Source: Aurantiacibacter poecillastricola | GTDB taxonomy: Bacteria; Pseudomonadota; Alphaproteobacteria; Sphingomonadales; Sphingomonadaceae | Direction: 5' to 3' | Length of the DNA: 64,000 nucleotides | Assembly (NCBI RefSeq): GCF_030730945.1 | Contig: NZ_JAVAMS010000001.1 | Span: 310,001 to 374,000 of the forward strand | Part shown: positions 13,266 through 33,822 of the stretch, in pieces | Layout of the letters: every line of letters begins with the position of its first letter | Numbering within the stretch: position 1 is the first letter of the stretch | Program-made: the position numbers and the translations under genes | The notes under the pieces: generated by a model | Told to the model about the DNA's origin: nothing | Seen by the model: the letters and a program-made list of their open reading frames with translations, nothing else | The model's database searches: none

Positions 13266-13307
13266 GTCAGGTGCATAGACCCCTATTCGCGGTTGCAACA
13301 AGTCGTC

Positions 13308-15419
13308 TCATTGCCCCGGAGCCTCGGGAAACGACAAACTGCGATAGTAGTCGAGATCGTGGGAGGGAGCCCGTGTGCCGGATGGCAGTCTGAGCCCGTT
13401 AAGCGATTGCCAGTAGGCGATCGACGCGTCGCGCCACCATGCGGCTTCACGCTGCTGGATGCGGAGGCTCTCTGCGACCGCGCGGTGACGCTCCTCATCG
13501 ACATATCCGGAAAGGCCTTCCCAGGTGCGCGCCATCGCGTCTACCTCGGCCACCCCCTGGTTGTAGCGATGGACCAGTTCGTCCCACAAGGCGCGACCGC
13601 TTTGTGTGCGATAATTCCAGTCCAGGTGGTGGAACCACAGCAGGTAACGCTCGTCCATCGTCGCCGGGTCGGACCAGTCCTGCGCCATCGCCGGCGCGTA
13701 CTGCTCCAGTGCGTTCGATCCCGTTGCGGTGCGGTCGAAGCCGATGCCCTCGCTGTCGGCGCGGTGGTAGTAGCAGGGATTCCATTCCGACCGGGCGAGA
13801 TCGCATACCCACGGAGCGGGCCCGTAGTGGTGCCCGGTCGCCATCAGGTGAGCGAGGCCGAGCGGCGTCATGTAACGCGCCACCGTTTCCTTGCTGCCAA
13901 GCATCATCGGCGCGGCTTCGGCCAGGAAGGCACCCTCGCGGTCGAAGGTCTGCGCCAGCCATTCGCGCGCGATCGTTTCGCTGGAGAGCGAGGGATCCCA
14001 TGCGAGACGCCCGAAAGCGTACCAGTTGGCCTGGTCGAAATCGCTGCCGCTCCAGTTCCTGTCCGACCCGGTATTGGCCACGCCCGCCATCCCAGCAGGC
14101 GAAACGATCTCCGCCACGCTGCCTCCGCGCCCGGTATCGGCCTCCAGCACTTCCCGCCACATCGGGGCGAGGAAGGCGAGGTGGCTGGCAAAGCCGAGAT
14201 ATTCCTTGGTGATCTGCACTTCCAGCATCAGCCTGGTGTTCGGCATGGCGCCGAACATCGGATGAAATGGCTCGCGCGGTTGGAAATCGACCGGCCCGTT
14301 CTTCACCTGCACGATCACGTTGTCGGCGAAGGCACCGTCGAGCGGTACGAATTCATCGTAAGCCTGTTTCGCGCGGTCGGTCTCGTCCTGTGCCGAATAG
14401 ACGAAAGCGCGCCAGATTACCGTTCCGCGCTCTCCGATCGCTTCGGCAAGCATGTTCGCACCGTCCGCATGGGTGCGGCCATAGTCCTGCGGCCCGGGCT
14501 GGCCCTCGCTATTGGCCTTAACCAGGAATCCGCCGAAATCAGGGATGGCGGCGTATATCTCGTCCGCCTTGGCCTGCCACCATGCGCGCACCTCAGGATC
14601 GAGCGGGTCCGCCGTGGCCAGCCCATCTATTTCAGTGGGCGCGCTGAAGCGGGCCGAGAGGTACACGCGGATCCCGTAGGGCCGCCATGCATCGGCCAGT
14701 CGCGCCAGCTTCTCGATATAGCGCGGCTCCAGCATGAAAGCGCGCGCGTTGACGTTGTTCACCACCGCCCCGTTGATGCCCACAGAGGCATTGGCACGCG
14801 CATAGTCGATCATGCGCTGGTCCAGCCGCTCGGGCAGATGCCACCAGTCGAAGATGGAGCGACCGGCATAGCCGCGCTCGACGTGGCCGTCGGGGTTGTC
14901 CCAGTGGTTCAGCAACCGCAGCGGCATGGCAGGCGCCGATTGCAGGTCGATGGCGGAAGGATCGGCGCCGAGTCCAAGCTCGCGCAGCAAGGCGTAGGAG
15001 GCGTAGAGGCACCCCACCGGCTCCCCGGCGCGAATGGAAATGCCCTCGCCTTCGGAGCGGATCGCGTAAGCCCCTTCGTTACCAATGGTGCGATCGCGGC
15101 AGTCGAACACGAAGTCGGCCTCGGCCTGCGCGCCCGGCAGGTCGCCGGGTTCCCCGCGAATCGGATGCGCGCCCTGCAACCGGGCAATTCCCTCCATAAG
15201 CTCCGCAATGGCGAGCCGCGTGGTTACGTCGTCCTGCGACGCATAAGCCGTAGGCTCCAAGTCCAGCAGACGGGCCCGCGCTTCTCCCTGAAGCGGCGCG
15301 TGGCGGAGCCACAGGTCGTATCCGTCCTCGCCATGCGCGGCGGGCGCCACGACGGACGAGGCGAATAGCAGCGACCCTGCTGTCGCAACGATGTTGACAA
15401 GCCTTCTCACCCTCATCAT
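13308..15419 (-). CDS. GH67 xylan alpha-1,2-glucuronidase
   Basis: The 703-residue precursor has a signal peptide ending near APAAHGED. GH67 hallmarks are a VKANSEGQPGPQDYGRTHADG segment with the expected acid glutamate, a VKNGPVDFQPREPFHPMFG segment with the expected aspartate, and LEVQITKEYLG with the second glutamate. The enzyme removes 4-O-methyl-glucuronic acid from the non-reducing end of xylo-oligosaccharides, outside the cytoplasm. Two consecutive ATGs (15,419 and 15,416) can start it. The first uses the T of the operator palindrome, and no ribosome site precedes either, so the mRNA may be leaderless. It heads an operon with the LacI regulator and the xylD-like gene. The same frame stays open far upstream, but only opposite the GH3 gene. 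Confidence 0.9.
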   Translation of the reverse strand: MMRVRRLVNIVATAGSLLFASSVVAPAAHGEDGYDLWLRHAPLQGEARARLLDLEPTAYASQDDVTTRLAIAELMEGIARLQGAHPIRGEPGDLPGAQAEADFVFDCRDRTIGNEGAYAIRSEGEGISIRAGEPVGCLYASYALLRELGLGADPSAIDLQSAPAMPLRLLNHWDNPDGHVERGYAGRSIFDWWHLPERLDQRMIDYARANASVGINGAVVNNVNARAFMLEPRYIEKLARLADAWRPYGIRVYLSARFSAPTEIDGLATADPLDPEVRAWWQAKADEIYAAIPDFGGFLVKANSEGQPGPQDYGRTHADGANMLAEAIGERGTVIWRAFVYSAQDETDRAKQAYDEFVPLDGAFADNVIVQVKNGPVDFQPREPFHPMFGAMPNTRLMLEVQITKEYLGFASHLAFLAPMWREVLEADTGRGGSVAEIVSPAGMAGVANTGSDRNWSGSDFDQANWYAFGRLAWDPSLSSETIAREWLAQTFDREGAFLAEAAPMMLGSKETVARYMTPLGLAHLMATGHHYGPAPWVCDLARSEWNPCYYHRADSEGIGFDRTATGSNALEQYAPAMAQDWSDPATMDERYLLWFHHLDWNYRTQSGRALWDELVHRYNQGVAEVDAMARTWEGLSGYVDEERHRAVAESLRIQQREAAWWRDASIAYWQSLNGLRLPSGTRAPSHDLDYYRSLSFPEAPGQ

Positions 15420-17885: not shown

Positions 17886-20272
17886 GCATGAACAGGCGCT
17901 CCGCGCTGGGCTTGCTGACGGGCGGAAGCCTGTCGGCGCTCGCGATCATGCACAGCCCGCTTGCCTTCGCGCAGGCGGGCGCGACCTACAAGGATCCCCG
18001 CGCGCCGATAGCCGCGCGGGTGGCAGACCTCATGGCGCGCATGACCCTGCGGGAGAAGATCGCCCAGATCCGCACCGCCTGGCAGGGCAAGGGAGACATG
18101 ATCGAGGGGCTCGAATTCGTGCCCGAAAAGGCGAGTGTTGCTTTCCCAGACGGAATCGGCCACGTCACCCGCCCTTCGGACAAGCGCGGCGTGCCAGGCA
18201 TCAGCGGCGCGGCGGGAGGGACAGCCGCCCGCTGGCGCACGCCCGAGGAGACGGTCGCCTTCATCAACGCCCTGCAACGCTGGGCACTCGAGGATACCCG
18301 CCTCGGCATTCCGGTCCTGCTGCACGAGGAATCGCTGCACGGCTACATGGCGACAGAGGCCACCATGTTCCCGCAGGCGATCGCACTGGCGGGCACTTTC
18401 GACACGGATCTTATGCGCCGTGTCCAGTCCGTCACGGCGCGCGAAGTGCGTGCGCGGGGCGTGCCGCTGGTGCTCAGCCCGGTGGTGGATATCGTGCGCG
18501 ATCCACGCTGGGGACGGATCGAGGAGACCTGGGGGGAGGACCCCTATCTCGCCGCCGAGATGGGCGTCGCCGCTGTCGAGGGCCTGCAGGGGCCCGGCAA
18601 GTTCGAGATGCTGCGTGAAGGCAAGGTCTTTGCCACGCTCAAGCACATGACAGGGCACGGCCAGCCCGAGGCGGGCAACAACGTCGCGCCGGCCCAGCTT
18701 TCCGAACGCGAGTTGCGCGAGAATTTCTTTCCACCCTTCCGCGAGGTCGTCCGCCGCACCTCGATCGGCGCGGTCATGCCCAGCTACAACGAGATCGACG
18801 GCATTCCCAGCCACGCCAACACATGGCTGCTCGGCGATGTCCTTCGCGGCGAGTGGGGTTTCGACGGCATCATCGTCAGCGACTATGGCGGCGTGCACGA
18901 ACTGGCAACGCTGCATCATGTGGCCGCGGATCTTGAGGATGCCGCGCAACAGTCGCTTCTTGCAGGCGTCGACAGCGAACTGCCCGAGGGCATGGCCTTC
19001 GCCACGCTCGAGGAAGCCGTCGAGGCAGGGCGCATTCCCGTAGAGCTGATCGACACGGCCTGCGCAAGAATGCTCGCGATCAAGTTTCGCGCGGGCCTTT
19101 TCGAAAATCCCTATGGCGATTTCCAGCTTGCGCAGCGCATTACCGGCAATGCCGAGGCGCGTGCCCTCGCCCTCGAGGCCGCGCGAAAGAGCATGTGCCT
19201 GCTGACCAACGGGAAAGGCGCCCTGCCGCTGCGTGAGACGGAGATGGGGCGCGTTGCCGTGATCGGCCCAAACCATGCCATCGCCCGGCTCGGCGGCTAT
19301 TCCAGCGTACCACAGCAGACCGTCAGCCTGATCGAAGGCCTGCGCCAGATAGCCCCCGGTGCCGACTTCGTGACGGCGCAGGGCGTCTTCATCACCACCA
19401 GCGAAGACCGCTCGCAGGACATCATCGAACTCGCTCCGCGCGAAAGGAACCTCGCCTTGATCGAGGAGGCTGTCGAAGTCGCGCGCGGGGCCGATACCAT
19501 CGTGCTGGCCATCGGCGATACCGAGCAGACCAGCCGCGAAGGCTTTGCCACCAATCACCTGGGCGACCGCACCGACATCGATATCGTGGGAGAGCAGAAC
19601 GCCCTCGTCGATGCGATGGCGGCGCTGGGCAAGCCGCTGATCGTGTGCGCCATCAACGGACGCCCGCCGAGCTGGCCCAGCGTGGTTGAAAAGGCCGACG
19701 CCGTCCTCGAGTGCTGGTATCCGGGGCAGGAGGGAGGCACAGCCATGGCCGAAGCCCTGCTTGGACGGATCAATCCCGGCGCCAAGCTGCCGGTGACGGT
19801 GGTGCGCAACGAGGGGCAGGTGCCCTCCTTCTACAATCACAAGCCGAGCGCACGCCGCGGTTATCTGTTCGACGATGCGTCGCCGCTGTTCCCGTTCGGG
19901 CATGGCCTCAGCTATACCACCTTCACCATTTCGGAACCCCGCCCCGGCAAGACGCGGTTCGCCACTGACGAGCCGGTTACCGTCGAGGTCGACGCCACGA
20001 ATGACGGCCCCGTTGCAGGCGACGAGGTGGTACAGCTCTACGTCACACGCACCGAGGCATCGGTAACGCAGCCGGTGCTCGAACTGAAGGGGTTCGAGAG
20101 AGTGACGCTCGCCCCCGGCGAAACGCGCACCCTGCGCTTTACAATCGAACCGCGACGCCTGGCCATCTGGAACAGGGACATGGTGGAGGTCAACGAACTC
20201 GGCCCGCTGACCCTGTCCGTCGGCAATAGCAGCGCGTCGCTCAAGCAAACCGAAGTGGAGATCATTGCATAA
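17882..20272 (+). CDS. GH3 beta-xylosidase/beta-glucosidase, second of tandem pair
   Basis: This 796-residue GH3 enzyme is a paralogue of the previous one, with the same three-domain layout and the nucleophile aspartate in IIVSDYGGVHEL (D334). Its N terminus differs: MNRRSALGLLTGGSL looks like a twin-arginine signal, whereas the first copy has a Sec-type signal. The pair may therefore reach the periplasm by different routes or serve different substrates. Translation starts within the stop of the previous gene (ATG at 17,882 or 17,888), and its own stop shares one base with the GH10 start (TAATG). That makes a tightly coupled xylan operon. Confidence 0.9.
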   Translation: MSMNRRSALGLLTGGSLSALAIMHSPLAFAQAGATYKDPRAPIAARVADLMARMTLREKIAQIRTAWQGKGDMIEGLEFVPEKASVAFPDGIGHVTRPSDKRGVPGISGAAGGTAARWRTPEETVAFINALQRWALEDTRLGIPVLLHEESLHGYMATEATMFPQAIALAGTFDTDLMRRVQSVTAREVRARGVPLVLSPVVDIVRDPRWGRIEETWGEDPYLAAEMGVAAVEGLQGPGKFEMLREGKVFATLKHMTGHGQPEAGNNVAPAQLSERELRENFFPPFREVVRRTSIGAVMPSYNEIDGIPSHANTWLLGDVLRGEWGFDGIIVSDYGGVHELATLHHVAADLEDAAQQSLLAGVDSELPEGMAFATLEEAVEAGRIPVELIDTACARMLAIKFRAGLFENPYGDFQLAQRITGNAEARALALEAARKSMCLLTNGKGALPLRETEMGRVAVIGPNHAIARLGGYSSVPQQTVSLIEGLRQIAPGADFVTAQGVFITTSEDRSQDIIELAPRERNLALIEEAVEVARGADTIVLAIGDTEQTSREGFATNHLGDRTDIDIVGEQNALVDAMAALGKPLIVCAINGRPPSWPSVVEKADAVLECWYPGQEGGTAMAEALLGRINPGAKLPVTVVRNEGQVPSFYNHKPSARRGYLFDDASPLFPFGHGLSYTTFTISEPRPGKTRFATDEPVTVEVDATNDGPVAGDEVVQLYVTRTEASVTQPVLELKGFERVTLAPGETRTLRFTIEPRRLAIWNRDMVEVNELGPLTLSVGNSSASLKQTEVEIIA

Positions 20273-21474
20273 TGGAGAAGTTTACGATCAGCCGCCGTGC
20301 TGCGCTGCTGGGCCTCGCGGCGATGCCCCTGGCTGGATGCGGCTCGGACAGCGGCAGCGGCATCTCGCCCGTCCTGTCTTCTCCGCCGCCTTCGGCCCTT
20401 CCGCCCGGCCCGGCTCCTGGTCCGAGCCTCAACGCGATCGCGCAGACCCGCGGTCGCTATTTCGGCAGCGCCATCGCCTCCATTCCCGGCACCGATCAGG
20501 CGGGCTCCATCCAGAACCCGAGATACACCGAGATCGTGAAAGCCGAATGCGGCATGGTCGTGCCCGAAAACGAGATGAAATGGCAGACGACGCGGCCGGG
20601 GCCCGAAACATACGACTTCACGCAGATGGACGCGATCGTCGCATGGGCACAGGCGAACGACATGGCCGTGCGCGGCCACACCTTGCTGTGGCATCGGCCG
20701 CAATGGTTTCCCGAATGGCTGAACAACTACGATTTCGGCGCCAACCCTGCTGCCGAGGCCGAGCGCCTGCTTACCGAACATATCCGCACCGTGACGGATC
20801 GCTATCGCGGCGTCATCACCAGCTACGACGTGGTCAACGAAGCCATCGACCATGATCGCAACGCCCCCATCGAGACGAGCCTCAGCCGTGCGATGGGGAG
20901 CCCCGAAGCGGTACTGGACCTTGCCTTTCACACGGCCCGCGAACAGCTTCCGCAAGGCCAGCTGGTCTACAACGACTACATGAGCTGGGAGCCTGTGCAT
21001 CTCGAGCATTGCGCCGACGTGCTTCGCCTGCTCGAAGGGTTCCGCAGCCGCGACGTCCCGGTCGATGCGCTGGGCATCCAGTCGCATATCGAGATGTTCG
21101 ATATCGACCCTGCAACGGGCGTTGGCCCCTATGCGGAGCGCGAGTGGCGCAACTTCCTCGATGAGGTCGTAGGCATGGGCTATCGCCTGCTGATCACCGA
21201 GTTCGACGTGAAGGACAAGGCGCTGCCGTCCGACATCGCCCTGCGCGACGAGAGGGTGGCGGACTACACCCGCCGCTATTTCGACCTGATGCTGGATTAT
21301 GATGAGCACCTCGACGACGTGCTGGCCTGGGGCATGGTCGATCAGTTCAATTGGTTGCAATATTTCGACCCGGCCAAGCGTGACGACGGGCTGGAGGTTC
21401 GCGGGACGCCCTACGAATCCGATTACAGTCCCAAGCTCATGCGTACCGCACTGGCCGAGACACTGGGCGCCTAG
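20272..21474 (+). CDS. GH10 endo-1,4-beta-xylanase, Tat-type lipoprotein
   Basis: The 400-residue protein begins with a twin-arginine motif (ISRRAALLGL) and an LAGC lipobox, so it is probably a folded, exported lipoprotein. The GH10 barrel is unmistakable: HTLLWH, the acid/base glutamate in VVNEAIDHD (E190) and the nucleophile in LITEFDVKD (E310). It cuts the xylan backbone or longer xylo-oligosaccharides. A serine/glycine/proline-rich linker (about residues 23-55) separates the anchor from the barrel. It is the last gene of the GH3-GH3-GH10 operon and is translationally coupled through TAATG. Confidence 0.93.
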   Translation: MEKFTISRRAALLGLAAMPLAGCGSDSGSGISPVLSSPPPSALPPGPAPGPSLNAIAQTRGRYFGSAIASIPGTDQAGSIQNPRYTEIVKAECGMVVPENEMKWQTTRPGPETYDFTQMDAIVAWAQANDMAVRGHTLLWHRPQWFPEWLNNYDFGANPAAEAERLLTEHIRTVTDRYRGVITSYDVVNEAIDHDRNAPIETSLSRAMGSPEAVLDLAFHTAREQLPQGQLVYNDYMSWEPVHLEHCADVLRLLEGFRSRDVPVDALGIQSHIEMFDIDPATGVGPYAEREWRNFLDEVVGMGYRLLITEFDVKDKALPSDIALRDERVADYTRRYFDLMLDYDEHLDDVLAWGMVDQFNWLQYFDPAKRDDGLEVRGTPYESDYSPKLMRTALAETLGA

Positions 21475-21613: not shown

Positions 21614-24600
21614 CTAGAAATTGCCTCTTATGATGAAGGAGAACCGGCGATCGTTCATGAAGTACGAGCGCGGGACAAGCTGGTCCGGATCACCCGAATA
21701 GGCCTGCGAAGTCTCGGTCACTTCGTTCAGCAGGTTCACGCCCTGGACGCCGATCCTGATGCCGCCCGGCAGGTCGAACGCGTCGCTGACATTGAAGAAT
21801 ATCGAGGCGTCGAGCTGTCCCGTCGGTTCGTTGAAGATCGAATAGTACGGGAAGATCACGTCAGAGGCGGTCAACAGGAAGCGCGAACGCCAGTTATACG
21901 CACCGCGTAGCGAGATCGGGCCCTTTTCGTAGAAGCCGGTGAAGTTGAAATTGTGCTTGGACAACTGCTCGAGCGGAAGGTTGCCCGGCGGAACCGTGGA
22001 TTCGTTTACCGGCGTTCCTGCATTGAGGAAGGTGTTCGGCAGGCCCGAACTCTCGATATACGTATAGTTCGCCTGGATGCCGAAGCCGTCGAGCGGAGCC
22101 GGAAGGAAGTCGTAGGTCTGCTGGTAGGCAACCTCGAAACCCTTGATCTTGCCGGTGCCGTCGAAGTTCGCCGGACCACGCACGAGCACGTTGCGCGTGA
22201 TGCCATTGCTGGTGATGTCCCGGCTCACGATGTCCTGGAAGAAGAAGTTCTCGACTTCCTTGTAGAACCCGTTGAGCGTCAGCGATCCGACCCGCGCGAA
22301 ATACCATTCGAGGCTGGCATCGAACTGCCATGCGGTTGCCGGCAGGAGGAACGGATTGCCCGCCGTGGCAGTCAACTCGCCACTCGTCCCCAGACCGATG
22401 GTCAGGAAGTTGCGGATATACGAGTTTTCAGGCCGTGTGAGCACCTTGGACCCGGCCAGGCGGAAGATCAGGTCGTCCGTCAGGCCGAAGCGCATGTTGA
22501 GGCTGGGCAGGAAGTAATCGTAAGTCTGCTCGGCCACGTTGTCGACGGTGACGCCGGTCCCCGCGAAGGTCTGCAGCTCTGCATAGCCTGCCGGACCAAG
22601 GGTACAGACGCCGCCCGGTACCTGCGGCGGCGTGCCCGGAGGAGCGTTGGGCGGAACCACCGGTTCGCAGCGCACGTCGAAGGGATCGGCGATGTTCAGC
22701 GCGGCGGTGCTGGGCACACCGATCGAGCCACCGGAGGTAAGGTCCGTATGGACGTAGCGAACGCCGACATTGCCGGCGAAGCGGATGCCGCCGAACAGCT
22801 CGTCGCTGCCGAAGTCAAACTGCACGTAGGCTGCCGTGTCGACCTGCTCCACCGGCTGGATGTCGGCCGGGAGATAGGGCGTGCCGTTGATGACACCGGG
22901 ACGCTGGCTGAGCGGGTTCCAGGTCGGAGCGCCCTCGTACTCGCTGGAGTAGAGATCCTGTATCGACTGGATGAAGTTCACCGACTCATCATAGCCATCG
23001 ATCAGGTCGCCCGAATAATAGAACGCTCCCGGAGAGCCCGGCACTTCGCCACGGAAGAAGTTCGGGAACTCGTACCGCTCGGAATTGCCGACATCGCCGA
23101 AGTTGATCGGACGCGAACCTGACCACGTCTCGCTCAGCATGCCCCAGTTGTAGGTCGTGTAGCGGACCGTCTGGTCACGCTCCTGATAGCGCGCACCCAC
23201 CTTGACCCGGCGAATGAAGGCGTAGTCGTCCAGTTCGTATTGCAGGTCGGCCTGCAAGGCGTACTGATCGCCGTCGCTGTCCTCGATGTGGTCCATCGCC
23301 GCGCGCCAGAACTGGAAGCGCGGATCGGTGAAATATTCCCGCTCGGTCGCGTTGGCCAGCGTCGGGCTGGGGGTCGACCAGGTATAGCCGAGGAATTGCG
23401 GCTTGTGAGGGACGATGACGGGATAGTCGCCGGTGAGATCCAGCTCCTGATCGGCGAAGGTCGAACCGAAGACGCTGAAGTCGAGGTTTTCCTTGCGCGA
23501 GGTCGCATACTGACCGTCGAGGACCACCGTCAGACGATCGGTCAGCTCCATCTGCATGTTGAGGCTGTAGTCCTCGTTGGTGATCTCGTCGTTCACCTGA
23601 CGACGCGCAAGCGACTGCTGGAGGCCGCCGATCGGCACGTAGGGCGAGCCGCCGCCGCTGATCAGGTTGCCGTCCGCGTCGCGCACCGGCGGCGCGGGAT
23701 CGTAATTGTCGACCTGGCCGCGCCAGCCATTGGTGGCGTTGACGATATAGCCCGACTGGAAAACGTTGCGCTCGTCATAGATATAGTCGGTGAACCCGCC
23801 CACCGGGCATTCGGCCCGCGCGGTCGGATCTCCGTTCGAACCGTCGGCCAGGATGATGTTCGGTCCGTTGGCATTCTGCTGGCAGCCGATCGGATACGTC
23901 GAATACTCGGCAAGGTCAGGCGCAGTTTCGTAGGTGTACTCACCCCACTTGTTGGTGGAGTGCGAGCGAATGAATTCCGCCGTTACCAGCACGCGCTCGT
24001 CGAGCGATTCGAACTGGGCTGAAACCGCGATGCCATCGCGCTTGCGATCGAAGTTCTGGGTACGGAACTGGCCGCCAACGGGCGCCACGCGGAAATCGGC
24101 ATAATCGGCAAAGCCATCGGCGCCCGGGCTGCCGAAATTGCCGCACTGGCCGTTGACCGGCGGCAGGGTAAAGGCGTCCGCATTGTTGGGAAGCGGGTTG
24201 CGACAGACCTGCACGCCGTCTTCGTTTGCCGCGTTTACAAGCATGCCGTCACGCGTCTGGTAGTTCGCCACCTGCAGGCCATCGGCGCGGGCCTTGATCT
24301 GCGAGTAGGACCCGCTCACCAGCAGGCCGAAGCGGCCGAGATCGGTATCCCAGGTATTGCTGATGAGCAGCGACCCGGTAGGTGTCCATTCCTCGCTGAA
24401 GTCGCCGTAATTCGCCTCGAGGCTGAAGCCGACGCGGAAGCCATCGCGATCGAAGGGCTTGCGCGTGTTGAGGTTGACCGTACCGGCCAGACCGCCCTCG
24501 ATCATCTCGGCCGTGGCGTTCTTGCTGATGATGACCGAGCCGAGCAGTTCCGAAGGCACATCCGCGAAATTCAGGGCCTGACCGCCGACACCGGCGGCAA

Positions 24601-25063
24601 AGGCACTGCGTCCGTTGAACTCGGAACGCACGAAGTTGAGGCCGCGCACGACGACGCCCGAACCCTCGACCGAGAAGTGGTCGGGGTCGTTCGAACCGGC
24701 GAAGCGGTTGATGGCGATGCCGGGAACGCGCTGGAGAGCCTCGGTCACCGAACGATCGGGAAGGGCGCCGATGTCTTCGGCCGTGATGGCGTCGACCACG
24801 GTATCGGCGTCGCGCTTGAGATCCTGCGAATTGGCGAGCGACTGGCGAATGCCGGTCACGATAATCGCGTTTTCGGCGGCAGTCTGGCCGTCCTCTTCGA
24901 CGCCCTCGATCTCGCTGGTTTCAGGTCGATCCTGGGCGAAGGTCGCCTGGGAAGCAAGCAAGCCGCCCAGTGCCAGGGAAGACGCGCCGGCCTTCAGAAT
25001 ACTGCGGAGTGCCGGCAATTCCCGCTGAAAGATATCGCCCGCACGCGTTTGCGCCTTGATCAC
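21614..25063 (-). CDS. TonB-dependent outer-membrane receptor, probably for xylo-oligosaccharides
   Basis: The 1149-residue protein starts at GTG with GGGAGGG upstream and has a long signal region (cleavage near SQATFAQD). The plug domain (ENAIIVTGIRQSL, DTVVDAITAEDIGALPDRSVTEALQRVPGI) is followed by a large beta-barrel ending in RRFSFIIRGNF, with the usual terminal aromatic residue. Size and plug sequence fit the Xanthomonas/Caulobacter class of large carbohydrate receptors (TIGR01782 type). A LacI-type operator lies 14 bases before the start codon, so it should be induced with the xylan enzymes. It is divergent from the halogenase-like cluster. Ligand identity is inferred from context. Confidence 0.9.
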   Translation of the reverse strand: MIKAQTRAGDIFQRELPALRSILKAGASSLALGGLLASQATFAQDRPETSEIEGVEEDGQTAAENAIIVTGIRQSLANSQDLKRDADTVVDAITAEDIGALPDRSVTEALQRVPGIAINRFAGSNDPDHFSVEGSGVVVRGLNFVRSEFNGRSAFAAGVGGQALNFADVPSELLGSVIISKNATAEMIEGGLAGTVNLNTRKPFDRDGFRVGFSLEANYGDFSEEWTPTGSLLISNTWDTDLGRFGLLVSGSYSQIKARADGLQVANYQTRDGMLVNAANEDGVQVCRNPLPNNADAFTLPPVNGQCGNFGSPGADGFADYADFRVAPVGGQFRTQNFDRKRDGIAVSAQFESLDERVLVTAEFIRSHSTNKWGEYTYETAPDLAEYSTYPIGCQQNANGPNIILADGSNGDPTARAECPVGGFTDYIYDERNVFQSGYIVNATNGWRGQVDNYDPAPPVRDADGNLISGGGSPYVPIGGLQQSLARRQVNDEITNEDYSLNMQMELTDRLTVVLDGQYATSRKENLDFSVFGSTFADQELDLTGDYPVIVPHKPQFLGYTWSTPSPTLANATEREYFTDPRFQFWRAAMDHIEDSDGDQYALQADLQYELDDYAFIRRVKVGARYQERDQTVRYTTYNWGMLSETWSGSRPINFGDVGNSERYEFPNFFRGEVPGSPGAFYYSGDLIDGYDESVNFIQSIQDLYSSEYEGAPTWNPLSQRPGVINGTPYLPADIQPVEQVDTAAYVQFDFGSDELFGGIRFAGNVGVRYVHTDLTSGGSIGVPSTAALNIADPFDVRCEPVVPPNAPPGTPPQVPGGVCTLGPAGYAELQTFAGTGVTVDNVAEQTYDYFLPSLNMRFGLTDDLIFRLAGSKVLTRPENSYIRNFLTIGLGTSGELTATAGNPFLLPATAWQFDASLEWYFARVGSLTLNGFYKEVENFFFQDIVSRDITSNGITRNVLVRGPANFDGTGKIKGFEVAYQQTYDFLPAPLDGFGIQANYTYIESSGLPNTFLNAGTPVNESTVPPGNLPLEQLSKHNFNFTGFYEKGPISLRGAYNWRSRFLLTASDVIFPYYSIFNEPTGQLDASIFFNVSDAFDLPGGIRIGVQGVNLLNEVTETSQAYSGDPDQLVPRSYFMNDRRFSFIIRGNF

Positions 25064-25229: not shown

Positions 25230-26801
25230 ATGCCCGACGCCAATGGTATCGTTACCCCCGAGCGGATAGCGAACATAGTGATCGTCGGCGGAGGGACCGC
25301 AGGGTGGATGGCGGCGGCTGCCCTGTCGCGCTTCTTCGACGATGGCAAACGCACCATCACACTGATTGAATCGGACCTCATCGGCACTGTCGGTGTGGGC
25401 GAGGCGACCATCCCGCCGATTCGCAACTTCAACGCCATGCTGGACATTTCCGAGAACGAATTCCTCAGGGAAACCCGGGGCACTTTCAAACTCGGGATAG
25501 AATTCGTCGACTGGGGCAGGATCGGCGATCGCTATTTCCACCCTTTCGGCGAGTACGGGCACGACTTCCACGGCATCCAGTTCCACCAGCTGTTCCTGCG
25601 CCAGCTGGCCCTGGGTGCGGATATCGGCGACATCTCGGACTACTCGATGAGCTGCGTGGCTGCCGCGCACCGGCGGTTCGGCCGTCCTTCCGCCCAAGCC
25701 AAGACGCCGGTTTCCGAGATCAACTACGCCTTCCATTTCGATGCCGGGCTCTACGCCGCATATTTGCGCAAGCTTGCAGAGCGGCAGGGCACGGTGCGCA
25801 GGGAAGGCCAGATCGTTCGCGCCCACCGCGACGGGGAAAGCGGCGATGTATTCGCGGTGGAGCTGGCCGATGGCTCTCGCATCGCCGGCGATCTCTTTAT
25901 CGACTGCTCCGGCTTTCGCGGCCTGCTGATCGAGGAGGAACTGGAAACGGGCTATGAGGACTGGAGCCACTGGCTGCCCGTCGACCGTGCCATCGCCGTC
26001 CCTACCGCCACCACCTCACCGCCAGATCCCTTCACCCGCTCCACCGCGCGGCAGGCGGGCTGGCAATGGCGCATCCCGTTGCAGCACCGTGTCGGCAACG
26101 GGCATGTCTTCTGCAGCCAGCACATGGGCGAGGACGAGGCGCGCGATATGCTGCTCGCAAACCTCGAAGGCGAGCCGTTGGCCGAGCCGCGCACCCTGCG
26201 TTTCACCACCGGCATGCGGCGCAAGGCTTGGAGCCACAACGTCGTCTCCCTCGGTTTGTCCTCGGGCTTTATCGAGCCACTCGAATCGACCAGCATCCAC
26301 CTCATCCAGAACGGCATTGCGAGGCTGTTCGCGCTGTTCCCGGACAAGCCGATCAGCTCGCTTGAACGCGACGAATACAATCGCGGGATGCGCGAGCTCT
26401 ACGAGGACGTGCGCGATTTCATCGTCCTGCATTACAAGGCCACGCAGCGCGATGACACCGAGTTCTGGCGCTATGTCCGCGACATGGAGGTGCCCGATTC
26501 GCTGGCGCGCAAGATGGAGCTGTGGCGCCTCCACGGCAGGGTATTCCGCGAGAATGCGGAGCTTTTCGCGCAGCCCAGCTGGATTGCGGTGATGCTGGGA
26601 CAGAACATCACGCCGCGAAGTCACGATCCCATCGCCGACACGCTGGACCAGCACAAGGTGCGCGAGGCCATGAGGCAGATGCGCGAGGGCTATCGGGCCA
26701 CGGCACAACGCCTGCCGAGCCAGGAGGAATTTCTGCGCCGTGCCGGCGCCTGGCATATGGAGCAACCTACGGCAGAATTCGCCTTTGGGGGGCGCCAGTG
26801 A
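25230..26801 (+). CDS. Flavin-dependent tryptophan-halogenase-like protein 1
   Basis: A 523-residue member of the PrnA/RebH family (PF04820). It has an N-terminal FAD loop (VIVGGGTAGWMAAA), the catalytic lysine in GTFKLGIEF (K87), the WxWxIP signature in GWQWRIP (W278, W280) and the glutamate in EPLEST (E352). By these residues it could be a working flavin halogenase. No flavin reductase or natural-product genes are near, and the place beside a carbohydrate TonB receptor is typical of an uncharacterised branch of the family in sphingomonads and relatives. It starts an operon with halogenase 2 and the cupin gene (4-bp overlaps). The substrate is unknown. Confidence 0.82.
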   Translation: MPDANGIVTPERIANIVIVGGGTAGWMAAAALSRFFDDGKRTITLIESDLIGTVGVGEATIPPIRNFNAMLDISENEFLRETRGTFKLGIEFVDWGRIGDRYFHPFGEYGHDFHGIQFHQLFLRQLALGADIGDISDYSMSCVAAAHRRFGRPSAQAKTPVSEINYAFHFDAGLYAAYLRKLAERQGTVRREGQIVRAHRDGESGDVFAVELADGSRIAGDLFIDCSGFRGLLIEEELETGYEDWSHWLPVDRAIAVPTATTSPPDPFTRSTARQAGWQWRIPLQHRVGNGHVFCSQHMGEDEARDMLLANLEGEPLAEPRTLRFTTGMRRKAWSHNVVSLGLSSGFIEPLESTSIHLIQNGIARLFALFPDKPISSLERDEYNRGMRELYEDVRDFIVLHYKATQRDDTEFWRYVRDMEVPDSLARKMELWRLHGRVFRENAELFAQPSWIAVMLGQNITPRSHDPIADTLDQHKVREAMRQMREGYRATAQRLPSQEEFLRRAGAWHMEQPTAEFAFGGRQ

Positions 26802-28333
26802 ACGGCGAGCCTGTCCGCAAGATCGTGATCGTGGGCGGCGGCACCGCCGGATGGATGGCCGCGGCCGGAATCTCGAAGATCCTCGGCGGGTTTCCGGGCT
26901 TGTCGATCCAGCTGGTGGAAAGCGAGGCCATCGGCACGGTCGGCGTGGGCGAGGCCACGATCCCGCAGATCCTGTCGTTCAACAATCTGCTGGAGATCGA
27001 CGAGAACGAGTTCGTGCGCGAGACCCATGCTACCTACAAGCTGGGCATCGAATTCGTCGACTGGCTGCGCCCGGGCCACTCCTACGTCCACCCGTTCGGA
27101 ACCTACGGCCTCGACATGCTGGGGATCGAATTCCATCACTTCTGGCTGCGGGGGCTGGAGACGGGGGCGCAGGAGCCGCTCGACCCCTATTCGATAGCGG
27201 CGGCAGCGGGCAAGGCGGGCAAGTTCTACTGGCCGCAGCTGAACAATCCGCGCTCTCCGCTGTCGAAACTCTCCTACGCCTTCCAGTTCGACGCCAGCCG
27301 CTATGCCGCGTTCCTGCGGCGCCGCGCGGAAGCGCAGGGCGTGGTTCGCCGCGAGGGCAGGGTCGTCCAGGTACACCAGAATGGCAAGACCGGCTTTGTC
27401 GAAGCAGTCGAGCTGGAGGATGGCAGCCGGATCGAGGGCGAGCTCTTCCTCGACTGCTCGGGCTTTCGCTCGCTACTGATTGGGCAGACATTGGGCGTAC
27501 CGTTCGAAGACTGGAGCAAGTGGCTCCCCTGCGACCGCGCGGTGGCGGTGCCCTGCACGCTTGCCGGGGATCGAGAGCCGCTGACCCGGTCGACAGCTCG
27601 CCCTGCCGGCTGGCAATGGCGCATCCCGCTGCAGCACCGCATCGGTAACGGACATGTCTATTCCTCGGCACATATCGGCGAGGACGAGGCGACCGACCTC
27701 TTGCTGGCCAATCTCGATGGCGAACCGTTCGCCCAGCCGAATCACTTGCGGTTCACTGCCGGTCACCGGGAGCGGTTCTGGGAGAAGAATGTGGTTGCCC
27801 TGGGGCTGGCAGGAGGTTTCCTCGAGCCCCTCGAGTCCACGGCAATCCACCTCGTGCAGTCGTCCATCGCGAGGCTGATGGCCTTCTTCCCCACCACCGC
27901 TTTCGGGGAACAGGAGGTCCGTCGCTTCAACCGGGAGACGACCCGCGAATATGTCGATATCCGCGACTTTCTCGTCCTGCATTACAAGGCGACGGAGCGC
28001 GACGACAGCGAGTTCTGGCGTTACTGCCGCAACCTCCCCCCGCCCGACGGACTGGCCGAGAAACTGGCGATCTACGAAGGCTCGGGCCGCGTGCTGCGCG
28101 AGCATGAGGAGCTGTTCACCGAGACGAGCTGGCTCTCCGTAATGGCGGGACAGGGCATAAAACCGAAGGGTTATCATCCGGTGGCAGCGATGCTCGACGA
28201 GGAAGAGACGACGAGGCGGCTGGCGCATATAAGGCAGGTCGTCGCGCAGGCCGTTTCCCAGATGCCCACGCAGGACGATTTCCTGCAGCAACAGGGTAGC
28301 GCCATCGCCGCGAGCGAACGCGTCACCGCATGA
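26798..28333 (+). CDS. Flavin-dependent tryptophan-halogenase-like protein 2
   Basis: The 511-residue protein starts at GTG, overlapping the previous stop as GTGA. All key family residues are present: VIVGGGTAGWMAAA, the lysine in ATYKLGIEF (K81), GWQWRIP (W272, W274) and the glutamate in EPLEST (E346). It closely resembles halogenase-like protein 1, so the two arose by duplication. Its stop overlaps the start of the cupin gene as ATGA. No signal peptide is seen, so it acts in the cytoplasm. The true substrate may not be tryptophan. Confidence 0.82.
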   Translation: MNGEPVRKIVIVGGGTAGWMAAAGISKILGGFPGLSIQLVESEAIGTVGVGEATIPQILSFNNLLEIDENEFVRETHATYKLGIEFVDWLRPGHSYVHPFGTYGLDMLGIEFHHFWLRGLETGAQEPLDPYSIAAAAGKAGKFYWPQLNNPRSPLSKLSYAFQFDASRYAAFLRRRAEAQGVVRREGRVVQVHQNGKTGFVEAVELEDGSRIEGELFLDCSGFRSLLIGQTLGVPFEDWSKWLPCDRAVAVPCTLAGDREPLTRSTARPAGWQWRIPLQHRIGNGHVYSSAHIGEDEATDLLLANLDGEPFAQPNHLRFTAGHRERFWEKNVVALGLAGGFLEPLESTAIHLVQSSIARLMAFFPTTAFGEQEVRRFNRETTREYVDIRDFLVLHYKATERDDSEFWRYCRNLPPPDGLAEKLAIYEGSGRVLREHEELFTETSWLSVMAGQGIKPKGYHPVAAMLDEEETTRRLAHIRQVVAQAVSQMPTQDDFLQQQGSAIAASERVTA

Positions 28334-29337
28334 GTTCTGCCCGGCCCATGGCAGAGTGCGCGCCTCCCCGCGATGTGAGCGAGCTCGATGCAATCCGGGC
28401 GGCGGGCAAGCCGGTCGTCATGCGCGGGCTGGTGTCGGATTGGCCCGCCGTAAAGGCTGCGGGAGACGGCGACGAAGCGATCGTCCGCTATATCCTCGAA
28501 TCCGGTGTCGCCCGTCCAGTGCGAGCCATCGCCGCCGCGCCCACGGAAGGCGGCAGGTTTTTCTACAATGCGCAGATGACCGGCTTCAATTTCATGCAGG
28601 GCCAGGGCCGGCTCGACGCCTTCCTCGCAGACCTGCTGACGGAGCGCGAGAAGGCCCGGCCGCACGCCATGGCGGTTCAAGCGGAGGCGATCGGCGAATT
28701 GCTGCCAGGCTTCCACCGCGAGAACCGGCTTCCGCTCCTGCCCGGCGTCGATCCGCATATCTGGATCGGCAATCGCATTCGCGTCGCCCCGCATTTCGAT
28801 ATCAAGGAGAATATCGCGTGCTGCGTCGCGGGCAGGCGGCGCTTCACGCTCTTCCCGCCCGGTCAGACGGCCAACCTCTATCCCGGTCCGCTCGAACTCA
28901 CTCCCGCGGGAACGCCCGTCAGCATGGTCGACCTTGCAGATCCTGACCTCACCGCGCATCCGCGCTTTGCCGAGGCGTGGTCCCATGCCGAGGAGGCCAC
29001 TCTGGAGCCGGGCGATGCCATCTACATTCCCTATTGCTGGTGGCACGGCGTGGAATCGCTGGAAGCTGTCAGCATCCTTGCGAACTACTGGTGGAACGAC
29101 GGGCAGGCGCAAGGCAATGGCAGTCCTTACGATGCGCTGCTTCATGCGATCATGGCCTATCGCCACCTGCCACAGGACCAGCGCAAGGTTTGGCGAGGTA
29201 TGCTGGATTACTACGTGTTCGAGGAAAGCGGCGACCCCGCCGCCCATTTGCCCGAACATGCCAAGGGTGTCCTCGGTCCGCCCGGTCCCGACCTGTTCGC
29301 GCGAATCCGCTCGATTATCCGGTCTGCGCTGGGTTAG
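28330..29337 (+). CDS. JmjC-like cupin protein (cupin_8 family), paralogue 2
   Basis: This 335-residue protein has the iron-site pattern of JmjC-like cupins: HFD in APHFDIKEN and a distal histidine in IPYCWWHGV. Family members are usually iron/2-oxoglutarate hydroxylases. It is translationally coupled to halogenase-like gene 2 (ATGA), so the two proteins probably act in one pathway. It is a paralogue of the cupin at 1659. Its last 23 bases overlap the 3' end of the convergent third halogenase-like gene. Confidence 0.78.
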   Translation: MSSARPMAECAPPRDVSELDAIRAAGKPVVMRGLVSDWPAVKAAGDGDEAIVRYILESGVARPVRAIAAAPTEGGRFFYNAQMTGFNFMQGQGRLDAFLADLLTEREKARPHAMAVQAEAIGELLPGFHRENRLPLLPGVDPHIWIGNRIRVAPHFDIKENIACCVAGRRRFTLFPPGQTANLYPGPLELTPAGTPVSMVDLADPDLTAHPRFAEAWSHAEEATLEPGDAIYIPYCWWHGVESLEAVSILANYWWNDGQAQGNGSPYDALLHAIMAYRHLPQDQRKVWRGMLDYYVFEESGDPAAHLPEHAKGVLGPPGPDLFARIRSIIRSALG

Positions 29338-30790
29338 CGCGGAGAACCGATGTTAGCCACTGGGCGTAAGGCGGCGCAAAAGCGACCGCAGCCTGCGATC
29401 TTGCCGCAAAGTCGGCCTGCGTTGCTGCGATGTCCCGCTCTGACAGGTGCTGCTCTCGAGTAGAGAGCCCTCGTGCAAAACCGAGCGCGCCAAGCAGGGC
29501 CAGTTGCTCCTGCTTCAAAAGCGGCGCTTCCTCCTGGAAAGGTAACCGCCCTCGCCTTTCGAACTGGTCGAGCGTCGTTCGGACTGTTCCAGGCACGCCG
29601 GCATCGGGGAAAACCATGCGCGCCCGCGGGGCTGCATAATGCATCGCCAGCAGATCGCGCGCGGCATCGAACATCAGGCCCGCTCTCCGATTGTACTCTG
29701 CCCTTTCGCTCGCAACGATCTGCCTGCCGGGCAGCATTTCCAGCAAGAGGTGCAGCTGGCGGTGCGCGAGATCGAGCGGAAGGAAGCCAAGCGGCTCGCA
29801 GCGCACCGCTGCATCGCCCATCGCAATGACATTTCCGATCCAAGCCTCGCGCGCGCGGCCCGGCGAAAGGTTCAGCACGGCCGCAGGTTCGGCCTGCAAG
29901 GCGGCTCGGGCCGCATCGTCACTCACGGCATCGTCGATGGCCAGCATGGTTTGCAGCCCGTCACGCCCGGCCAGTTCGCACAGCCAGCCCTCGGAAAGCA
30001 GGGAAATCCTGTCCTCCAGTTCGAGCATGGCCTGTCCCGGCGGTGCGACGAGTACGCGGCGGATCGGGGAAATGTCGCTCCACGGGGCCACATCGAATTC
30101 CGGCATGGCGGAGGCGAGGATCGCGTCCGGTCCGCTGCAATCGACGAACAGGTCGGCCTCGATCGTGCCCTGCCCCTCGATGGCAATGCTCGCTATGCCG
30201 CCTCGCCCATCGGGCTGGATAGCCGCGATTAACCCGCTGACATGCGTGACGCCCGCTCGCCGCGCATGGTCCACCAGCAGGTTGCGGTAAGCCGGCGGGT
30301 TCCAGCGCAGCGCATACTCGACCTCGGAGATGGGCGTATCGGCATCGGGCGGAGGCGGAGCGAAGCGGCCGGCTTCGACAAGCGCTTCTGCGATAGAGCC
30401 GGCGGGTCGATCCTGGCTGACATTGCGCGGCCCTCCGCCCCATTGCTGGGCGAAGCGAGTCTGCAAGGCAGGGTCGCTAGCGCCGCCATAGGGCATGATG
30501 CCGTGCTGTTCTTTCCCGCCCCAACCGACATAATGGGTTGCGAGACGGTAGCTGCCACCGGCGGACAGCACCAACTGCGCTTCCTCGATACCCAGCCGGT
30601 CGTGCAACTTGTTGGTGAACGGCAGGGACGTGGAGGCCCGGTCCGCAAAGGCCGCAAGGCCCGATGCGATGCCGATCACCACAACCTCGCAAGTCGGCAG
30701 GGCGCGGCGCAGGCCGATGGCGGTGAGGACTCCTACCTGACCGCCCCCTGCAACCACGATCCTGCGCAATGGCTCGCGCGGCTGGCTCAC
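29315..30790 (-). CDS. Halogenase-like flavoprotein 3, catalytic residues lost
   Basis: The 491-residue protein starts at GTG and keeps a nucleotide-binding start (IVVAGGGQVGVLTAIGL), a DLFVDCSGPDA segment and overall length, so it belongs to PF04820. But the catalytic lysine is arginine (R82 in GSYRLATHYVGW), the WxWxIP motif is absent, and EPLEST has become EPLGFLPLDL. The frame is intact, so this is a diverged protein rather than a pseudogene. It may have a different flavin chemistry or a non-catalytic partner role. It overlaps halogenase-like gene 4 by 4 bases (GTGA) and must be co-expressed with it. Confidence 0.75.
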   Translation of the reverse strand: MSQPREPLRRIVVAGGGQVGVLTAIGLRRALPTCEVVVIGIASGLAAFADRASTSLPFTNKLHDRLGIEEAQLVLSAGGSYRLATHYVGWGGKEQHGIMPYGGASDPALQTRFAQQWGGGPRNVSQDRPAGSIAEALVEAGRFAPPPPDADTPISEVEYALRWNPPAYRNLLVDHARRAGVTHVSGLIAAIQPDGRGGIASIAIEGQGTIEADLFVDCSGPDAILASAMPEFDVAPWSDISPIRRVLVAPPGQAMLELEDRISLLSEGWLCELAGRDGLQTMLAIDDAVSDDAARAALQAEPAAVLNLSPGRAREAWIGNVIAMGDAAVRCEPLGFLPLDLAHRQLHLLLEMLPGRQIVASERAEYNRRAGLMFDAARDLLAMHYAAPRARMVFPDAGVPGTVRTTLDQFERRGRLPFQEEAPLLKQEQLALLGALGFARGLSTREQHLSERDIAATQADFAARSQAAVAFAPPYAQWLTSVLRANPAQTG

Positions 30791-32307
30791 GTGGGTTCCG
30801 CCAGCCGGGCGCTGTTGCGGCGCAGGTAATCGGTATGCGCGGGCATCTGCGAAACCGAGGTGTTGATCTCGCTGCGCAGGCGATCGGTCGCCGATTTCAG
30901 GCGCTCGGGGTCGACAAGGCCGGTGCGCGTGTCATGCCGCTCGGGCATCAGGCCCTGGCCCAGATAAACCGCGATCCAGCTGGCGTCGTAGAACAGGCCG
31001 TCCGAGTATTTCTCGATGCGCCCGGCCTGCCGCCACAGTTCCATTTTACCTGCGAGACTGTCCGGCACGGTCATGGTGCGGACATGGTTCCAGAACTCGG
31101 AATCGTCGCGCGTGGTGGCGTGATAATGCAGGATCAGGAAATCACGGACACGGTCGTATTCCATGTCGACGAGGCGGTTGAACTCGTCGCGGTCGGCGGG
31201 TTCGATAGCGCCTTCCGGGAAAAGCTCGATGAGGTAAGTGATGGCCATCTGCGCGAGATAGATCGAGGTCGATTCCAGCGGCTCGAGGAACCCGCTCGCG
31301 AGACCAACCGCGATGACATTGTGGCTCCAGCTGCGACGCCGCCTGCCCGGGCGGAAACGCAGCACGCGCGGATCTGCCAAAGGTTCGCCTTCGCTTGCTT
31401 TCTTGATAGCGTCACAGGCCTGGTCCTCGCCGATGAATGCGCTGGAAAAGACATATCCGTTGCCCATGCGATGCTGCAGCGGGATCTGCCACCGCCAGCC
31501 TGCGGGCATGGCTGTCGCCGTGGTGAAGGGCCGAATGTCGTCGGTAGCGTGCTTGCAAGGCATGGCAGCCGCGCGGTCGCAGGGCAGCCAGTGGGTCCAG
31601 TCCTCCCACTCCTCGCCCAGTTCCTGCCCGAGGATACGCGAACGGAAACCCGAGCAGTCGACGAACAGGTCGCCTTCGATCCTGCGCCCGTCTTCCAGCT
31701 TGAGCGCGGCGACATCGCCGCTTTCGCCATCGCGCTCCACTTCCGTCACCAGCCCCTCGTGCCGCGTGACGCCGATCGAGAGACCGGACTCGCGCATGAA
31801 CGGGCCGAACAGGGTCGCATCGAACTGGTAGGCATAGCCGTAGGACGAGGCGAGCGACATGTCCTCGGCCGGCGGAGCGAAGCGGTTGGCAAGGGCGGCC
31901 GCCACGCAGAACGAATAGTCGCCCAGCGGTCCTGCTAGCCCGCGCCGGTTCAGTTCGAGCCAGTAGTGATGGAAGCCCACGCCTCCCAGCTCCTCCCCGA
32001 AGGAGCCGAAGGGGTGAATATAGCTTTCCCCGATCCGGCCGAAATCGCGGAAATCGATGCCCAGCTTGTAGGTGGCATGGGTGGCCCGCATGAACTCGGC
32101 CTCTGATATGCCGAGCCTCTCCACGAAGCCGCGAATATGTGGCAGCGTTGCCTCGCCCACGCCGATGATGCCGATATCCTCGCTTTCGACGAGGTCGACC
32201 GTCACCCGGTCACCCATCATCCGGGCGAGCCCGGCGGCGGTCATCCATCCGGCGGTACCACCGCCCAGGACAACCACGCGCCGGGGTTTCGCTTGGGAAT
32301 CGCTCAT
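30787..32307 (-). CDS. Flavin-dependent tryptophan-halogenase-like protein 4
   Basis: The protein has 506 residues when started at the second ATG (32,307), which has AGGG at a good distance; the first ATG (32,313) is almost on top of it. Key residues are present: VVVLGGGTAGWMTAAGL, the lysine in ATYKLGIDF (K81), GWRWQIP (W271, W273) and the glutamate in EPLEST (E345). It lies 42 bases after the sugar carrier gene on the same strand, so it may be expressed from the carrier promoter, which has a LacI-type operator. It precedes the diverged copy 3. Confidence 0.82.
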   Translation of the reverse strand: MSDSQAKPRRVVVLGGGTAGWMTAAGLARMMGDRVTVDLVESEDIGIIGVGEATLPHIRGFVERLGISEAEFMRATHATYKLGIDFRDFGRIGESYIHPFGSFGEELGGVGFHHYWLELNRRGLAGPLGDYSFCVAAALANRFAPPAEDMSLASSYGYAYQFDATLFGPFMRESGLSIGVTRHEGLVTEVERDGESGDVAALKLEDGRRIEGDLFVDCSGFRSRILGQELGEEWEDWTHWLPCDRAAAMPCKHATDDIRPFTTATAMPAGWRWQIPLQHRMGNGYVFSSAFIGEDQACDAIKKASEGEPLADPRVLRFRPGRRRRSWSHNVIAVGLASGFLEPLESTSIYLAQMAITYLIELFPEGAIEPADRDEFNRLVDMEYDRVRDFLILHYHATTRDDSEFWNHVRTMTVPDSLAGKMELWRQAGRIEKYSDGLFYDASWIAVYLGQGLMPERHDTRTGLVDPERLKSATDRLRSEINTSVSQMPAHTDYLRRNSARLAEPT

Positions 32308-33808: not shown

Positions 33809-33822
33809 TGGTAGCGCTACCT
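33809..33822. promoter_or_regulatory. LacI-type operator between the sugar carrier and xylA-like genes
   Basis: TGGTAGCGCTACCT has one mismatch to the perfect palindrome. It lies 41 bases before the carrier start and 83 bases before the dehydrogenase start, in a divergent promoter region. Confidence 0.8.

Follow-up and report, generated by a model that had tools for sequence, protein, structure and literature searches.

Flavin-dependent halogenase genes with a motif-less partner beside TIGR01782 TonB-dependent receptors: a xylan locus of Aurantiacibacter poecillastricola and its counterparts in Proteobacteria

Related enzymes and loci

What do the orphan flavin-dependent halogenases of the BrvH type act on in their hosts? 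According to passages of the report on BrvH (PMC5945002), the enzyme slowly brominates free indole at C3 but not tryptophan, its activity is lost without Lys83, what it acts on naturally is not known, and there could be space for larger substrates in its active site. For three Xanthomonas halogenases, passages of a second report (PMC7336383) likewise give the native substrates as unknown. The present analysis concerns four halogenase-like genes, hal1 to hal4, and a gene for a JmjC-like cupin, which lie beside a TonB-dependent receptor gene of family TIGR01782 in Aurantiacibacter poecillastricola. The stretch analysed, called the window here, comprises 64,000 nucleotides (contig NZ_JAVAMS010000001.1, positions 310,001 to 374,000). 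Active-looking BrvH-type halogenases have a conserved association with TIGR01782 receptors, and both types travel together; they make up a widespread module in which halogenases are linked to the receptor and have a motif-less partner.

The nearest relatives of hal1, hal2 and hal4 are BrvH (PDB 6frl), Xcc4156 (6y1w) and a Pseudoalteromonas protein (9luq). These share the catalytic motifs and match hal2 at 490-524 bits, exceeding its matches to tryptophan halogenases by more than 200 bits when solved structures are compared by sequence. As in the window, the BrvH gene adjoins a second halogenase gene, according to a passage of PMC5945002. The word 'TonB' is absent from the main texts of the BrvH and Xanthomonas papers (PMC5945002, PMC7336383), and passages of the two describe no inactive partner enzyme.

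Among described gene clusters, the closest are the carbohydrate utilisation loci with TonB-dependent receptor (CUT loci), for which parts of the original description (PMC1790865) give a receptor, glycosidases and a sugar porter as components. In the window, a TonB receptor, glycosidases and an inner membrane porter likewise occur all together. The same description, in part, reports a xylose-regulon palindrome common to Caulobacter and Xanthomonas; its main text does not mention a halogenase, a cupin or SapC. QhpG, a peptidyl-tryptophan dihydroxylase, is a flavoprotein that oxidises protein tryptophan (abstract of PMC7876137), and its profile weakly matches hal1 to hal4. The protein on which QhpG works is crosslinked by a radical SAM enzyme, whereas no such enzyme was seen at the window locus.

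A link between such receptors and halogenases was not described in the literature searched (titles, the starts of abstracts and opened passages, with subscription papers mostly outside it). Nor did this literature yield an established explanation for the gene set, which agrees with an earlier reading of the window made from the sequence alone (the sequence-only reading). Ismail et al. 2019 may mention receptors near such genes, as may annotation of the regulon type, so first notice of the link is not claimed.

The halogenase genes of the window

Profile searches of the window proteins confirm the families and coordinates of the sequence-only reading, which had placed four halogenase-like genes and a JmjC-like cupin between a receptor and a carrier. 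The set fills the space between a TIGR01782 receptor and a XylE-like carrier:

21614-25063, minus strand: TonB-dependent receptor, TIGR01782 (TonB-Xanth-Caul), 622.9 bits against a cut-off of 310
25230-26801, plus strand: hal1 (group C), catalytic flavin-dependent halogenase-like; PF04820 639 bits; K, WQWRIP and EST kept
26798-28333, plus strand: hal2 (group D), catalytic flavin-dependent halogenase-like; PF04820 622 bits; nearest PDB entries 9luq, 6y1w and 6frl
28330-29337, plus strand: Cupin_8 protein (JmjC/FIH-like), putative Fe(II)/2-oxoglutarate oxygenase; PF13621 211 bits
29315-30790, minus strand: hal3 (clade P), halogenase paralogue without catalytic motifs; PF04820 183 bits
30787-32313, minus strand: hal4 (clade A), catalytic halogenase-like; PF04820 601 bits
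32349-33767, minus strand: XylE-like sugar porter; PF00083 379 bits

An alternative start of hal4, a second ATG six bases inside the gene, corresponds to the end at 32307 given previously. The best NCBIfam match of the carrier is NF007484 (XylE) at 389 bits, below the cut-off of 608; it also scores 374 bits with the sugar porter family TIGR00879, above the cut-off of 237.8.

Overlaps of 4 bases (GTGA or ATGA) join hal1 to hal2, hal2 to the cupin and hal4 to hal3, with GTGA at hal1/hal2 and hal4/hal3, and the gap from xylE to hal4 is 35 bases. Because of these overlaps and this gap, the genes form two units lying tail to tail, hal1-hal2-cupin on the plus strand and, probably with xylE as its first gene, xylE-hal4-hal3 on the minus strand. 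The two operons previously proposed thus stand, the second probably extended by xylE. Receptor and hal1 are separated by 166 bases.

On motif inspection of the alignment, hal1, hal2 and hal4 keep GVGEAT, the catalytic lysine, WxWxIP and EST, which bears out the earlier statement that three of the proteins retain the lysine, WxWxIP and glutamate. By these motifs they are flavin-dependent halogenases of the BrvH/Xcc4156 type, predicted to be catalytic. The module has no flavin reductase of its own, as noted before: the only PF01613 protein found in the genome is on another contig. The accompanying remark that no indole pathway is near needs qualification, since genes for kynureninase and tryptophan 2,3-dioxygenase lie within the window at 55769-57786 (minus strand), about 23 kb from hal4.

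Linkage to TIGR01782 receptors across genomes

How general is the association? The A. poecillastricola genome encodes three TIGR01782 receptors above the cut-off, each within 2 kb of a halogenase, and five full-length catalytic halogenase copies besides hal3 and one distant PF04820 gene (locus L011, see below). Across 59 family genomes, a full-length halogenase (E below 1e-80) was found in 36 of the 51 that have a TIGR01782 receptor and in none of the eight without one (Fisher p 2e-4); these counts hold among the matches listed, with up to 22 and up to 13 first-look candidates scored per genome, and a member could be missed.

Eighty regions, 76 around listed family matches and four from the own genome (the fragment G025:C341 not being included), contain a halogenase gene in 79 cases. 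Such a receptor is found within 2 kb in 61 of these 79 halogenase loci. The loci hold 124 halogenase genes, of which 75 lie within 2 kb of a receptor and 96 within 6 kb; halogenases with variant motifs (GEGT, WxWDIG) were entered in locus counts as 'variant' and not as catalytic. For the best 80 named loci of the genome collection, 64 have a receptor within 2 kb, and several of the others are short contigs. LacI or glycosidase labels, which derive from clusters with representatives checked by Pfam, occur in at least 60 of 78 loci (L011 left out). Viewed from the receptor side, 17 of 31 above-cut-off TIGR01782 receptors adjoin a halogenase by coordinates in six genomes chosen as halogenase-bearing. 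The link recurs in Alpha-, Beta- and Gammaproteobacteria. Comparison of PF04820 and receptor neighbourhoods therefore upholds the correlation with carbohydrate receptors in related genomes, and the earlier claim is not refuted.

Halogenase genes that neighbour each other on the same strand are tightly packed (20 bases or less in 98 of 102 cases). Among them there seems to be little room for a precursor peptide gene such as would serve a ribosomally synthesised and post-translationally modified peptide (RiPP) pathway with a MibH-like enzyme; the search covered open reading frames (ORFs) of 90 amino acids and above. On this spacing a precursor peptide is disfavoured, within the same size range, though the 166 bases between receptor and hal1 leave some space. 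Apparent fusions of halogenases to a receptor, a cupin or another halogenase were rejected, the long ORFs being mis-started and each carrying one domain.

Locus types and matching trees

Does the association follow the receptor or the sugar? Starch loci have the order MFS (major facilitator superfamily)-LacI-receptor-hal-GH13-GH13-GH97 (GH, glycoside hydrolase), beta-glucan loci have halogenase and receptor back to back together with LacI, MFS and GH3, and a further kind of locus carries SapC and a cupin. The second receptor locus of the own genome, L009, has a GH16 gene and a LacI regulator; an OmpR-type response regulator (10691-11365) and a second, below-cut-off receptor (11448-14348) stand right behind its beta-glucan halogenase. 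In L010 (827-14063), a LigA/LigB locus for aromatic ring opening encloses receptor, cupin and halogenase and also encodes amidohydrolases and a PrpF protein. Because starch, beta-glucan and aromatic-acid loci also have halogenases, the association follows the receptor more than the sugar. Of the sugar-linked function proposed in the sequence-only reading, the receptor link is real and recurrent, but the constant partner is the TIGR01782 receptor and not a sugar, as the GH16 and LigAB loci illustrate.

In a tree of 114 linked and 29 unlinked receptors, the latter hand-picked as controls from receptor loci of the own genome and of family genomes, linked receptors fall in few clades, apart from most unlinked ones. 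Distances in the receptor tree correlate with those of the nearest halogenases (Mantel r 0.73; 51 loci, 32 genomes). When halogenases were shuffled within genomes (16 genomes, 35 loci), the mean r was 0.19 and the maximum 0.65, and none of 2000 shuffles reached the observed value. Species descent is excluded as the sole cause of this agreement, because the within-genome shuffles give far lower correlation.

Several candidate marks of linked receptors failed. A universal aromatic signature was rejected, there being no such column in the alignment. Ser at window residue 105 separates the two sets best (81% of linked receptors; Asn in 29/29 unlinked) and was rejected too: it follows receptor clades and may reflect one event. 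Tryptophan content is raised in xylan and beta-glucan receptors and not in starch ones, and was likewise discarded. Within the xylan clade (33 receptors), W447 is conserved in 88%, W640 in 33/33 and W647 in 97%, each occurring in 0 to 7% of the 29 unlinked receptors.

hal3 and the motif-less clade P

Passed over in the sequence-only reading, hal3 belongs to an old motif-less clade that accompanies hal4-type genes. Its catalytic lysine is replaced by arginine, and GEAT, WxWxIP and EST are all lost; only the glycines for flavin adenine dinucleotide (FAD) are retained. Thus hal3 lacks the catalytic motifs of a halogenase while its predicted fold is kept, and by motif it would be a paralogue and not an active halogenase. 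Its model (predicted local distance difference test, pLDDT, 83 for the cupin treated below and 91 here) superposes on the BrvH fold with a template modelling score of 0.84 at 20% identity, the prediction for hal3 being a complete halogenase fold.

In a tree of 282 halogenases, all 31 sequences without an EST-type motif form one clade, P, with support 0.999. A second tree, built from another alignment with trimmed columns, supports P at 1.0, P plus A at 0.94 and A alone at 0.86. Clade P is placed by these trees as the sister of clade A, to which hal4 belongs; fast evolution could inflate this grouping, but gene position agrees with the trees. The trees hold 282 of the 292 genes above 100 bits, the ten excluded being short and five of them motif-less copies behind A genes, and two more genes below 100 bits stand outside. 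L012 and L123 are an identical stretch and both are in the trees, so that the 31 P and 38 A sequences amount to 30 and 37 distinct ones. Outside clade P, the lysine is kept in 250 of 251 sequences (the remaining one lacks that end) and WxW in 251 of 251; a count of glutamate retention is circular, as P was defined by loss of the EST motif.

P and A are almost always neighbours. Where the contig includes the gene upstream of P, that gene is a same-strand halogenase every time (30 of 30; 29 of clade A, one truncated). The two overlap by exactly 4 bases in nine cases, are separated by 0-12 bases in five and overlap otherwise in 16, some of these last reflecting wrongly picked starts. Conversely, behind 37 of 38 A genes comes a copy that has lost the motifs: 29 belong to clade P, seven are short or weak and outside the tree (one a contig-end fragment), and one emerged on rechecking. 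The remaining A gene is the first of two in tandem. At the lysine position, P sequences have arginine (11), serine (10) or another residue (6), lysine being retained in four. Over six close loci the ratio of nonsynonymous to synonymous change is 0.19-0.41 for P against 0.07-0.19 for A, synonymous sites being saturated or close to it. Clade P seems to be under purifying selection, and looks like a pseudoenzyme that has been maintained; most simply, it would be a duplicate of A that serves as its subunit.

Xylan-type loci have the recurring order receptor-A-P and then one or two more halogenases, and one or two follow P in most loci. The order A-P-C-D is found, for example, in Sphingomonas, Asticcacaulis, Maricaulis and Aestuariibacter, and A-P-D in Gilvimarinus, Cellvibrio and Parvularcula. 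The window differs, with C-D-cupin and A-P as two separate units. Automatic gene picks hid some genes under long spurious ORFs (a C gene in L012; both P and D in L018). The group names C and D are provisional: hal1 and hal2 were rejected as firm orthologous groups, with support of 0.657 for C and 0.369 for D and no C clade in the second tree.

The cupin

The JmjC protein hydroxylases FIH and JMJD5 are nearest to the cupin by sequence and fold, sharing HxD...H at about 20% identity, and structures of both bear peptide substrates in their PDB titles. The iron triad H155, D157 and H239 is invariant in 17 aligned sequences. Arg170, also invariant in all 17, stands at the position of the 2-oxoglutarate lysine of FIH, and an FIH-type lysine is thus missing. 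The assignment as a putative Fe(II)/2-oxoglutarate oxygenase is lowered but not dropped, as the arginine may still serve. The model has an FIH/JMJD5-like fold and is weak from about residue 258 onward.

Three Cupin_8 genes were found in the genome, each of them within one of the receptor-halogenase loci. One of them belongs to the same xylan locus and is 43% identical to the first cupin:

1659-2666, plus strand: second Cupin_8 gene

It sits between GH3 and GH5 genes, with an operator-like site at 2704, and is a candidate for another receptor-locus hydroxylase.

Xylan context and operators

The surrounding genes encode, by Pfam scan, GH3, GH5, GH10 and GH43 enzymes and a protein with an arabinofuranosidase C-terminal domain; an aldose epimerase, an aldehyde dehydrogenase, an FAA-hydrolase-like protein and a short-chain dehydrogenase are also nearby. 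Because of these glycosidases and sugar-enzyme genes, the locus is read as one that serves xylan or arabinoxylan. The marker of the locus and two operators are:

20272-21474, plus strand: GH10 xylanase-like gene, xylan marker; PF00331 238 bits
25078-25091, no strand: xylose-type operator TGTTAGCGCTACCA, between receptor and hal1
33809-33822, no strand: xylose-type operator, between xylE and the aldehyde dehydrogenase gene

The xylose-type operator TGGTAGCGCTACCA, allowing up to two mismatches, has five matches in the window against 0.11 expected, and none of 100 shuffles gives five; the region was rightly described before as lying under such an operator. A GntR/FCD regulator is encoded at 42358-43143, and no LacI-type regulator was identified among the window genes scanned. 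Because operators lie between receptor and hal1 and before xylE, hal1, hal2, the cupin, hal4 and hal3 are probably all in the xylose-type regulon. An operator in the receptor-hal1 position recurs at six further loci. As a general mark of halogenase loci the operator was rejected, with an intergenic match in 10 of 39 A/P loci and in 5 of 66 others.

Possible role of the module

What does the module do? Its recurrence beside one receptor family suggests that the enzymes work for the receptor and not for an antibiotic pathway, and that the module is dedicated to the receptor is very probable. The reading as a whole, a receptor-dedicated oxidative modification module of a xylan uptake locus, is given a probability of about 0.33. 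The proteins would work in the cytoplasm with FADH2 supplied by a general flavin reductase. hal4 and hal3 (A and P) may associate as a heteromer, with P either docking the substrate or regulating its partner. Halogenation (probably bromination) or oxidation of peptidyl residues, aromatic or other, would fall to the active halogenases, and the cupin could hydroxylate such residues. The target might be the precursor of the cognate receptor, or a partner of the receptor, modified before export, with the clade-conserved W447, W640 and W647 of the xylan receptor as candidate sites. The likeliest target appears to be a peptidyl aromatic residue of this precursor or partner because of the tie to one receptor family, the little room for a precursor gene, the substrate range of BrvH, the example of QhpG and the peptide substrates of FIH and JMJD5 in PDB titles; that the substrate is peptidyl is nevertheless tentative. 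In its general form the idea is speculative and rather unlikely: before their export, TIGR01782 receptors of Proteobacteria would be modified post-translationally on aromatic residues, by bromination and/or hydroxylation, through dedicated halogenases and JmjC enzymes, with P as targeting subunit. If true, pre-export receptor modification would be what the orphan indole-brominating halogenases natively do.

Several observations weigh against this modification of the receptor. Linkage and matching trees are expected of any stable operon and do not imply contact. The QhpG and LodB matches of hal1 to hal4 (18.6-30.3 bits; QhpG 21-30) fall far short of the NCBIfam equivalog cut-offs of 240 and 400, the 2-oxoglutarate lysine is replaced by arginine in the cupin, and a cupin is found in just 29 of 159 loci. 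In the receptor alignment no aromatic column is conserved in linked receptors and absent from unlinked ones; the clade-specific tryptophans may be there just for sugar binding, and starch receptors are not rich in tryptophan (0.94 vs 0.90 per 100 amino acids). The receptor family also works without a halogenase, since 15 of 51 receptor-bearing genomes lack a full-length one; 18 of 79 loci have no such receptor within 2 kb, and in the six genomes 14 of 31 receptors have no adjacent halogenase, nine of them in a single genome (2 of 11 linked).

Could the halogenases instead make a small signal or defence compound such as bromoindole when sugar is present, the receptor link tying production to feeding? 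Free indole is indeed brominated by BrvH in vitro (passages of PMC5945002), and BrvH and the three Xanthomonas enzymes act on indole derivatives (passages of PMC7336383). Parts of two further reports give one transposon hit in a 'tryptophan halogenase' gene in a Sphingomonas colony-morphology screen (PMC11340318) and a guessed role in competition for tryptophan halogenase transcripts of Colwellia and phages (PMC11337851). The activity of BrvH on indole is low, however, and no biosynthetic partner genes were seen; five catalytic copies in one genome, with types that track receptor types, would be needless for a single diffusible product, and this explanation is unlikely. Action on imported cargo is quite unlikely. 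Xylan bears hydroxycinnamate esters, and ferulate and coumarate, as aromatic substituents of the polysaccharide, or co-released phenolics could be the substrates; the own-genome copy in the LigAB-type ring-opening locus (L010) fits this. The same kind of enzyme stands by receptors for starch (GH13, GH97) and for beta-glucan (GH16), substrates that lack substituents of this kind, which disfavours the ferulate and coumarate modification raised in the sequence-only reading.

It is improbable that the enzymes have no specific substrate and act as flavin or oxygen sensors, or as oxidant producers, that tune receptor expression or the state of the outer membrane: the motif-less hal3 clade indicates that non-catalytic roles exist in the family, but lysine and WxW are retained almost without exception in the 251 other sequences. 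Hitch-hiking of halogenase genes in mobile sugar loci, functionally unconnected with the receptor, would yield matching trees by operon co-transfer. Against it, the link recurs in several separate receptor clades with different surrounding enzymes, and from Sphingomonas to Gilvimarinus and Cellvibrio the A-P pair is still there behind the receptor; this explanation has very little likelihood. The receptor tie and the conserved motif-less partner narrow the native-substrate question of the BrvH and Xanthomonas halogenases to a short list of experiments, and point either to a new protein modification of receptors in the outer membrane or to a new halogenation chemistry that sugar triggers in aquatic and plant-associated bacteria.

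Other genes of the loci

A second, distinct halogenase type with GVGEGS and EAT variants occurs in starch-type loci, mostly at the far end of the GH13-GH97 genes (L135, L138, L150, L153, L155, L168, L172, L180, L183 and L195). The distant PF04820 gene of L011 (9099-11246, plus strand) is not receptor-linked; judged from their translations, its neighbours are PqqD-like, kinase-like and sulfotransferase-like, and the neighbourhood looks like a peptide-modification cluster. Proteins of DUF6445 (15 of 159 loci) and SapC (7 of 159) recur, for example in L131 (7927-8637) and L177 (11709-12461).

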